This document shows, one piece after another, positions 21,486-24,233 of a DNA stretch of 64,000 nucleotides. Below the pieces are notes generated by a model. The model did not search any database and had not been told where the DNA came from. It worked only from the letters and a program-made list of their open reading frames with translations. Position numbers and translations under genes: made by a program. Origin of the DNA: Rossellomorea aquimaris TF-12 (lineage in GTDB: Bacteria > Bacillota > Bacilli > Bacillales > Bacillaceae_B); the NCBI RefSeq assembly GCF_001648555.1, contig NZ_LQXM01000027.1, positions 248,001-312,000 of the forward strand, written 5' to 3'. Each line of letters starts with the position of its first letter. The first letter of the stretch is position 1.

Positions 21486-21747
21486 GTCGCCATCCTCCTT
21501 AAATGAAAAAGAGACCTCGCCACAAAACGAGTGCCTGATTTCTCCACCTGTCGTGAAAAAATCATACCGTTCGCTTTATAGGTGATCCCTTTTACTCTAT
21601 TTACCAAGCTTCGTTCCATAGAATATTCTTTTCATCATATACCAATTTTTTTTACATTTCAATATTTCATCTCTAAATTCTAAGTGTAAAATAAATTTTT
21701 TTGAATGATCTTTTCAATCCCTAGGCACTCAATATCTTTCATTCAAA

Positions 21748-21872: not shown

Positions 21873-21899
21873 TGTCACAAACCTCTTCCTTCACTCGTC
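21873..21899 (+). promoter_or_regulatory. ECF41-type promoter
   Basis: TGTCACA (21873-21879), 16 bases, CGTC (21896-21899). This is the exact form I know for ECF41 sigma factor targets. It sits 35 bases before the oxidoreductase start, and an ECF41-type sigma factor is the second gene of the operon. The match is seen directly; control by that sigma factor is inference. Confidence 0.82.
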
Positions 21900-21933
21900 T
21901 TTTGGATGAAAACAATTTAAGGAGGTTCATTTA

Positions 21934-23211
21934 ATGACTCAAGATCGATGGGATGTTGTCATTGTAGGAGGCGGTTTAGCCGGTTATGTATCAGCAAATA
22001 TTTTAGGAAAAGCTGGTCTGAAAACTTTACTTGTTGAAAAAGCAAATAAGGTTGGAGGACGTGCCAAAACGGATATTGTTAACAACCAATATTTGAATAT
22101 CGGGCCACATGCCCTATATAAAAAAGGGAGAGCAAGTTCAATTTTGACCGATTTAGGTATCACCATAACAGGGAATGCTCCTAAAAAAAACAGCATAATA
22201 ATTTATCATGACACTCCCTATATAGCCCCTTTTTCACCAAAAGGACTCGTACAGTCAAAATTCCTAAGCTGGAATGAAAAAATAGAATGGATTGGAATTC
22301 TACGGAAAGTACAAAAGTTACAGTCAGGTCTATTCAGCCATAAAACATTTCAACAGTTTGTCGAAGAAACAACCAATTCGTTCAAAATACAACAGCTGCT
22401 TTATACGTTAGGCCGTTTAGCTAGCTATTCTCATGCACCGGAGAAAATAAGTGCAAGCGTCATGCTTACTCATATACAACTCGGTATGGGAGGCGTTGTC
22501 TATGTTGATGGTGGATGGCAATCCATCATTGACCAACTCCACAACCAGGCTGTTACAAACAGTGTACAGATTCAAACCGGTTCATCTGTGAAGCACCTGA
22601 ATGCAATAGAAAGTGGCGAGTGGCAGTTAAAGTTATCCAACCAGGAAACTATCCTTTCCAAATTCATCATTTATACAGGCTCTCCCCAAGCATTGAATGG
22701 TCTGCTAGGTGTCCCTTCCAAAAAGCTCCCTTTCAATCAACTTGAACCCATTAAAGCCGCCACATTAGATGTTGCATTAACTAAGCTTCCAAACCCAAAC
22801 AATTTGTTCGCGTTGGGAATTGATGAACCTTACTATTTTTCTGTACACTCCAACTATGCACGACTATCACATGATGGTAAAAGCAAGGTTCTCCATGTAT
22901 TGAGGTATCATCACCCTAACGCTCATATAAATGGCCCGGATGAAAAATTGAAGCTGGAGGGGTTTTTAGAGACCTTACAACCAGGTTGGAAGAATTACGA
23001 AATTAAAAGTAGATGTTTTCCACAAATCACGGTCAATTGTCGCTTATCAAAGGTGGGAGATGAAACGATTTTCTCTCGCGGTCTTTCTATCGCTCCTGGC
23101 CTCTATATGGCTGGAGACTGGGCTTCACCATATGTCATGTTGTCTGAAGCTGCCGTTGAAAGTGGAAAGCAAGCTGCTTTGGAAGTAATCGATAAAGAAA
23201 CGGGGGTATAA
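21934..23211 (+). CDS. FAD-dependent oxidoreductase (phytoene dehydrogenase-like), ECF41-linked
   Basis: A 425-residue flavoprotein of the NAD(P)/FAD-dependent amine oxidase/phytoene desaturase type. The N-terminal dinucleotide motif is VVIVGGGLAGYVSANILGKAG; GGRAKT follows near residue 43; the C-terminal FAD motif is GLYMAGDWASPYVMLSEAAV. ATG at 21934 has AAGGAGG upstream. It ends two bases before the sigma factor start. The ECF41 group is known for gene linkage with oxidoreductases, carboxymuconolactone decarboxylases or epimerases, so this is probably its dedicated target. The substrate is unknown. Confidence 0.88.
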   Translation: MTQDRWDVVIVGGGLAGYVSANILGKAGLKTLLVEKANKVGGRAKTDIVNNQYLNIGPHALYKKGRASSILTDLGITITGNAPKKNSIIIYHDTPYIAPFSPKGLVQSKFLSWNEKIEWIGILRKVQKLQSGLFSHKTFQQFVEETTNSFKIQQLLYTLGRLASYSHAPEKISASVMLTHIQLGMGGVVYVDGGWQSIIDQLHNQAVTNSVQIQTGSSVKHLNAIESGEWQLKLSNQETILSKFIIYTGSPQALNGLLGVPSKKLPFNQLEPIKAATLDVALTKLPNPNNLFALGIDEPYYFSVHSNYARLSHDGKSKVLHVLRYHHPNAHINGPDEKLKLEGFLETLQPGWKNYEIKSRCFPQITVNCRLSKVGDETIFSRGLSIAPGLYMAGDWASPYVMLSEAAVESGKQAALEVIDKETGV

Positions 23212-23212
23212 C

Positions 23213-24070
23213 ATGCGAATTAGTAATGAAGAATATTTGATGTATAAGCCTTTGTTATTTTCTCTCGGTTATCGCATGACCGGGTCAGTATCCGAAACAG
23301 AAGATCTTGTTCAAGAAACGTTTCTCCGAGCCTATCAAATGGATGAACTAAAGGTGGAGAACAAAAAGGCATATTTATGTAGAATGATGACAAACCGATG
23401 CATTGATTTTTTTAAATCTGCAAAAGTAAAAAGAGAACAGTACATGGGTCCTTGGAATCCAGAACCTTTACTTCAAGCGGAAGACCGTCTCTCTGATCCT
23501 TCTGAAATTCTTATTGAGAAAGAGTTTTTAAGTATAGCCTATTTACGGATGATGGAGCACCTTTCTCCCCATGAACGCGCTGTTCTGTTATTACGAGAGG
23601 CATTCAGATTTTCGTATAAAGAGATTGCCATTATGATTGAAAAAAATGAAGAAAATTGCCGTAAGCTATATAGTCGCTCAAAGAAAAAAATGGCCGCTGT
23701 TGAAGGAGAAAGCTTACATTTTGAGAAAAATAAATCATTAATTCAACGATTTATTCACGCATTTCAAACAGAACATACGGATGAACTTTTAGAAATTATT
23801 TCAGAAAATGTCACACTGTATTCTGATGGTGGCGGAATCGTTAAAGCCGCTATACGACCTATCCTCACTCGCCAAAGAGTATTAGCGTTTTTACTTGGCA
23901 TCAAGAAGAATGTTTCTGAAGACTATAAGTATGACATTACAACCATTAATGGCCAACCAGCCATTTTGAACTACATGAATGGTGTGGTGCATAGTACTAT
24001 TAGCTTTTCTATATTCGATAATCAAATTGTGGAAATTTACATGACTGTGAATCCAGACAAATTACCATGA
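23213..24070 (+). CDS. ECF41-type RNA polymerase sigma factor with SnoaL-like C-terminus
   Basis: A 285-residue sigma factor: region 2 at ~8-75 (ETEDLVQETFLRAYQ), region 4 at ~110-160 (LSPHERAVLLLREAFRFSYKEIA), then a ~110-residue SnoaL-like extension. The extension carries DGGG (about 203-206) and the terminal NPDKL, both hallmarks of the ECF41 group, where this extension replaces a separate anti-sigma factor. Indeed no anti-sigma gene is nearby. The start at 23213 lies one base after the oxidoreductase stop, with GGGGG in the preceding codons, suggesting coupled translation. A matching promoter lies upstream of the operon, so autoregulation is likely. Confidence 0.9.
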   Translation: MRISNEEYLMYKPLLFSLGYRMTGSVSETEDLVQETFLRAYQMDELKVENKKAYLCRMMTNRCIDFFKSAKVKREQYMGPWNPEPLLQAEDRLSDPSEILIEKEFLSIAYLRMMEHLSPHERAVLLLREAFRFSYKEIAIMIEKNEENCRKLYSRSKKKMAAVEGESLHFEKNKSLIQRFIHAFQTEHTDELLEIISENVTLYSDGGGIVKAAIRPILTRQRVLAFLLGIKKNVSEDYKYDITTINGQPAILNYMNGVVHSTISFSIFDNQIVEIYMTVNPDKLP

Positions 24071-24081
24071 AACATGGGACG

Positions 24082-24122
24082 GTTCTCGTGCTTCCTCCTA
24101 ACGAAAAAAGAAGCGTGAGAAC
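24082..24122 (+). terminator. Probable terminator of the sigma factor operon
   Basis: Arms GTTCTCGTGCTTC / GAAGCGTGAGAAC with two imperfect pairs, followed by TTTCATG, twelve bases after the stop. Confidence 0.55.
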
Positions 24123-24233
24123 TTTCATGTGCTTCCGCCACTTCCCATCCCCTACCTAATCCTCAACCAAGAAATGGAATGTCTTCGCCTCCACCTTCAT
24201 AGAATTAAAGTAAACGAAGGGAGCTGGTCCTCA

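Follow-up and report, generated by a model that had tools for sequence, protein, structure and literature searches.

A two-gene operon of Rossellomorea aquimaris TF-12, lying within the 64,000-nucleotide stretch of DNA analysed here (the window), appears to be a one-operon, self-activating ECF41 sigma-factor system that would drive its own expression and that of one flavin enzyme, gated by a SnoaL-like domain fused to the sigma factor. We give this reading a probability of roughly 0.8. It starts from the observed anatomy, family, promoter conservation and enzyme-sigma linkage of the operon. The operon itself is ordinary, being another member of the ECF41 type described in 2012; what this analysis adds is the closeness with which flavoprotein and sigma factor travel together.

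The ORF list gives a tight pair on the + strand, with a flavoprotein gene (21934-23211) followed by a sigma-factor gene (23213-24070) that begins one base past the flavoprotein stop. A sequence-only reading of this DNA had described such an operon behind TGTCACA, exactly 16 bases and CGTC, and we found both ORFs and the site (21873-21899) in place. The features are as follows.

21873..21879, + strand: predicted ECF41 promoter -35 element, TGTCACA (pattern search, conservation in relatives)
21896..21899, + strand: predicted -10 element, CGTC, after a 16-base spacer (pattern search, conservation in relatives)
21919..21925, + strand: ribosome-binding site AAGGAGG, 8 bases 5' of the flavoprotein ATG (read from the sequence)
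21934..23211, + strand: FAD-dependent oxidoreductase of the Amino_oxidase family, 425 aa (PF01593, predicted structure, Foldseek)
23213..24070, + strand: ECF41 sigma factor, 285 aa (TIGR02957, NF007214, Pfam, SigJ structural match)
23237-23425, + strand: sigma-factor region 2 (Pfam)
23537-23692, + strand: sigma-factor region 4 (Pfam)
about 23720-24067, + strand: SnoaL-like C-terminal domain of the sigma factor (predicted fold, structural matches)
24082..24122, + strand: imperfect 13-bp inverted repeat directly 3' of the sigma-factor gene (read from the sequence)

The inverted repeat at 24082..24122 is a possible transcript end, and it is missing from the output of a terminator scan that permits loops of 3-8 only. 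Short pieces of the surrounding stretch (24059-24144) are also found elsewhere in the genus, in at least 10 other genomes, and a second time in the window's own genome; this stretch with its 13-bp inverted repeat is possibly a short dispersed repeat. The three neighbours scanned beside the operon belong to the MgtC, DUF948 and Usp families in Pfam, and no anti-sigma gene was seen among them. The sole sigma-70-type promoter candidate on the + strand lies at 21651-21679 (9/12 match); the region holds 5 such candidates, below the shuffle mean of 7.4.

The sigma factor belongs to ECF41, as had been proposed from the sequence, because it passes the cut-offs of the SigX4 model TIGR02957 (342 bits against 323.25) and the SigJ model NF007214 (289.7 bits against 271) and has SigJ as its best structural match. 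TIGR02957 presumably corresponds to ECF41. The protein scored 100.7 bits against the SigX5 model TIGR02960, which we take to stand for ECF56-type proteins and which has a cut-off of 264.75. Sigma-70 regions 2 and 4 (PF04542 and PF08281) score above their cut-offs and are the only such regions present, the arrangement of the ECF type. No second ECF41 was seen in the same genome, where six other sigma matches reached E 3.6e-10 or weaker.

The structure prediction that the sequence-only reading had suggested for the C-terminal domain yielded a predicted SnoaL-like fold. The sigma-factor model has a mean pLDDT of 78.5, and the linker at 71-105 lies mostly below 50. Its first structural match was SigJ of Mycobacterium tuberculosis (5xe7), at full length with E 6.6e-14, followed by SigG1 (7qh5), an ECF56 sigma factor from Streptomyces tsukubaensis that likewise carries a SnoaL-like extension. 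SigJ, in which region 2 and region 4 are likewise followed by a SnoaL-like domain, is also the best sequence match (22-23% identity in Foldseek), and it is given as an ECF41 example in the portion of a 2022 review used here (PMC8999054). Further structural matches of about 120 columns were to ketosteroid-isomerase-like folds and presumably cover the C-terminal part of the model. The C-terminal domain has no Pfam match of its own at E 0.1; the predicted fold and the structural matches point to a fused SnoaL-like C-terminal extension.

Relatives were examined at 58 loci from Bacillus-type, Sporosarcina-type, Exiguobacterium and Paenibacillus species. Alignment A1 contains 55 of these 58 (without L062, L064 and L066), and alignment A2 contains 53 (without the same three and L054 and L056). 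DGGGK and NPDKL are conserved motifs of the ECF41 extension. The DGGG and NPDKL noticed earlier in the tail of the sigma factor are confirmed at residues 205-208 and 280-284. DGGG occurs in all 56 aligned sequences, with the window's counted, and is followed by K in 46, I in 7 (including I209 of the window), V in 2 and E in 1. N280, P281, K283 and L284 are each found in 53 of the 56, the other three having gaps. Between regions 2 and 4 the linker carries WNPEP (81-85), sharing 4 of 5 letters with the ECF41 linker motif WLPEP, which SigJ has; W81, P83 and P85 are present in all 56 sequences, with N82 in 53 and L82 in 2. The words DGGGK and NPDKL are absent from the main text of the 2012 ECF41 study (PMC3426412).

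That study, by Wecke et al., covers 373 ECF41 proteins, and its consulted sections report the order COE then ECF in 107 of 373 loci, with a promoter before COE in 97, and list Amino_oxidase among the Pfam domains of ECF41 oxidoreductase partners (PMC3426412). Such loci share the gene order, promoter position and Amino_oxidase partner of the operon, and those sections reveal no difference in kind. Because gene order, promoter and Amino_oxidase partners are already described there, the operon is of a known type. The same source gives the ECF41 motif as TGTCACA-n16-CGTC, reports 5'-RACE mapping of the start sites for two species, and states that B. subtilis has no ECF41. Its accounts of Ecf41Bli/ydfG from Bacillus licheniformis and Ecf41Rsp/RSP_0606 from Rhodobacter sphaeroides likewise describe an ECF41 sigma factor with a C-terminal extension, no anti-sigma gene and a single detectable target, and a partner promoter with -35 TGTCACA and -10 TGTT or CGTC. 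The partner in those two systems is a carboxymuconolactone decarboxylase, whereas the window's partner is an Amino_oxidase flavoprotein. The sequence-only reading had counted oxidoreductases among the usual ECF41 partners, and the upstream gene agrees with this, as judged by its PF01593 score. A search of titles and abstract openings in the open-licence literature found no study of this flavoprotein-ECF41 pairing.

The promoter site matches the predicted ECF41 form exactly, and we regard it as real because 55 of 56 flavoprotein-bearing relatives retain it in the same position. TGTCACA with a fitting -10 element was found within 400 bases in 54 of the 56, and the 55th is the closest relative, Bacillus infantis (L059), which has GGTCACA-N16-CGTC with the first base changed; the own-genome copies L001 and L002 are excluded from both counts. 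The -10 element in these 55 is CGTC (51) or CGTT (4), and the spacer is 16 (46) or 15 (9) bases long. Spacer positions are mostly variable, with C frequent at position 17 (39/46) and T right before the -10 element (43/46). The distance from the end of the -10 element to the flavoprotein start, extrapolated from alignments, is 23-36 bases in 54 of 55 and 243 bases in L030. Several similar short GC-rich units (GCCAGGGGG...CCCTGGC) were seen by eye upstream of the B. infantis operon (L059:3440-3680), and these look like a dispersed palindromic repeat. Paenibacillus camelliae (L045) has the gene pair and no recognisable promoter. By eye, a longer unit is present in two similar copies where its promoter is expected (L045:3251-3730), and they may have displaced it.

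Turning to the flavoprotein, the sequence-only reading had likened it to phytoene desaturases and amine oxidases, a resemblance that stands at the level of fold and of PF01593 (61.4 bits, cut-off 19.8) and goes no further: none of the 25 NCBIfam models listed, of 124 matching, reached its cut-off. The protein scored 63.8 against 580 for CrtD, 53.7 against 283.05 for HpnE, and 37.4 against 560 and 32.5 against 97.85 for two protoporphyrinogen oxidase models. Its structural model (mean pLDDT 92.0) matched monoamine oxidase A with a Foldseek E of 2.3e-24, and the fold matches also include nicotine oxidoreductase, putrescine oxidase, protoporphyrinogen oxidase and phytoene desaturase; identity across the 50 fold matches listed is 14-18%. 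With no cut-off reached among the listed models and identities this low in the listed folds, a specific enzyme name was rejected.

The flavoprotein gene lies directly upstream of the sigma-factor gene in 56 of the 58 relatives. At L064 the match to the sigma factor is divided between two frames and no flavoprotein match occurs in the 1150 bases upstream; the L066 sequence starts 82 bases before a 48-residue match and is hence uninformative on the flavoprotein. Pairwise distances of the sigma factor and the flavoprotein correlate with r 0.90 over 54 pairs, against a maximum of 0.33 in 1000 shuffles, and shared species history alone can also explain this correlation. Across 150 genomes of the order, flavoprotein relatives (E up to 1e-30) number 21 copies in 20 genomes, and each of the 21 precedes a same-strand ECF41-type gene by 5-85 alignment bases. 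Sigma relatives at E 1e-40 number 34 copies in 28 of the 150 genomes, and 13 of the 34 have no such flavoprotein adjoining.

From published ECF41 work we infer that the sigma factor would act on this promoter and be controlled by its extension. The portion of Wecke et al. used here reports that the C-terminal extension controls ECF41 activity, which is altered on truncation (PMC3426412), and the 2022 review agrees in its corresponding section that the SnoaL-like extension inhibits ECF41 (PMC8999054). A basal, low level of sigma factor would bind RNA polymerase and recognise TGTCACA-N16-CGTC upstream of the flavoprotein gene, and the two genes would then be transcribed together, resulting in positive autoregulation. 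The fused SnoaL-like domain would keep sigma activity low until a signal arrives. This signal would most likely be a small molecule in the SnoaL-like pocket, which would alter how region 2, region 4 and the extension are arranged. The output would be a single enzyme, the flavoprotein with its amine-oxidase fold, whose probable role is to oxidise or detoxify a small organic compound. According to the same portion of the 2012 study, the ECF41 signal was not known at that time and no reproducible phenotype was found (PMC3426412).

We considered whether the promoter motif could be a chance match, with another holoenzyme transcribing the operon, or conversely one site of a wider regulon. TGTCACA-N15-17-CGTC matches once in the 64-kb window (shuffle mean 0.04), and a genome scan of the kind suggested by the sequence-only reading returned the operon's site as the only exact TGTCACA-N16-CGTC in the 4.04 Mb genome (reversed control 0). 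Of the 150 genomes of the order, 104 nevertheless contain the exact pattern, namely 26 of the 28 with an ECF41-type gene (E up to 1e-40) and 78 of the 122 without one at E 1e-40, which have at least one match each; because of these 78, a lone match is weak proof. Set against its retention at one place in nearly all flavoprotein-bearing relatives, a chance origin of the motif is very hard to credit. A sigma factor that also governs distant genes, with this operon as just one member, seems improbable, though somewhat less so. In its favour, a spacer of 15-17 with CGTY yields three more sites in the same genome, one of which (L069, spacer 17) lies 72 bases before an ORF. However, the other two fall within ORFs, the L069 site itself overlaps the end of the preceding ORF, and the own-genome counts match those of reversed controls (4 against 3 for this pattern, and 3 against 3). 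Allowing two mismatches gave 516 sites against 619 in the reversed control. Support for a wider regulon from such relaxed patterns was rejected as chance on these three comparisons. The single-target logic put forward by the sequence-only reading is supported by the lone exact site and by the 10 genomes of the order with a sigma match at E below 1e-100. In 9 of these the exact site lies 1340-1350 bases before that match, the site being absent upstream of it in G150, and further exact sites total 14 against 13 in the reversed control. Because the 150-genome set overlaps in species with the 58 relatives, with several sites identical to the letter, the two sets cannot be counted as independent.

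The enzyme-sigma linkage raises another alternative, in which the flavoprotein takes part in signalling by making or removing the ligand of the SnoaL-like domain, and enzyme, sensor and switch form a closed loop. That all 21 flavoprotein copies in the 150 genomes (E up to 1e-30) adjoin an ECF41-type gene would be expected of such a loop, as would the parallel divergence of the two proteins; a regulator and its sole target simply moving together would, however, give the same linkage. The idea is also at odds with the 13 of 34 sigma copies that have no such flavoprotein beside them and with relatives in the genus that adjoin carboxymuconolactone decarboxylase-family or Pyr_redox_2 genes. Moreover, the published partner YdfG, the carboxymuconolactone decarboxylase of B. 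licheniformis, had no effect on its sigma factor, according to the sections of PMC3426412 used here. We therefore consider a closed loop rather unlikely, if the most plausible of these alternatives. A more specific version is more doubtful still: a flavoprotein subfamily found only with ECF41 would make or consume the SnoaL-gating ligand, a patchily distributed two-gene cassette would sense, switch on and convert one compound, and members in which DGGG is followed by I, V or E instead of K may recognise a different ligand. The constant association of the 21 flavoprotein copies with ECF41-type genes nonetheless provides a handle, since finding the substrate of the flavoprotein would offer a candidate ECF41 ligand.

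As for the distribution of the operon, the 36 genomes of the genus yielded its sigma ortholog once, in the window's own genome, and sigma relatives at 35-45% identity in nine others. Four of those nine had their partners scanned, which gave an Amino_oxidase protein with 29% identity to the window's flavoprotein, a Pyr_redox_2 protein and two proteins of the carboxymuconolactone decarboxylase family. Two of the nine sigma factors were scanned; L071 passes the TIGR02957 cut-off and L077 does not. In L072 and L073 a small gene runs divergently from a sigma relative, TGTCACA-N16-CGTT precedes both genes, and the small gene of L073 is of the carboxymuconolactone decarboxylase family. L077 and L078 carry a more distant sigma relative (35% identity) downstream of another gene, and the stretches examined there showed no TGTCACA site. 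In L077 the preceding gene is Pyr_redox_2, and the mechanically called ORFs overlap.

The genes flanking the operon are common to many of the 36 genus genomes yet scattered there, and inside the operon the matches listed include only one 114-base stretch at 79%. Either acquisition by transfer or repeated loss would fit this distribution. The idea that the operon had been inserted into a neighbourhood left intact around it was considered and withdrawn, as the flanking genes are scattered in other genomes and no empty site was shown. The assembly of the window's own genome (G000) is given a contamination value of 9.56%. Pattern matches recur in it between contig C2 and C4, C6, C11, C14 and C20, between C1 and C3, and between C21 and C26, and the assembly may hold duplicated stretches.
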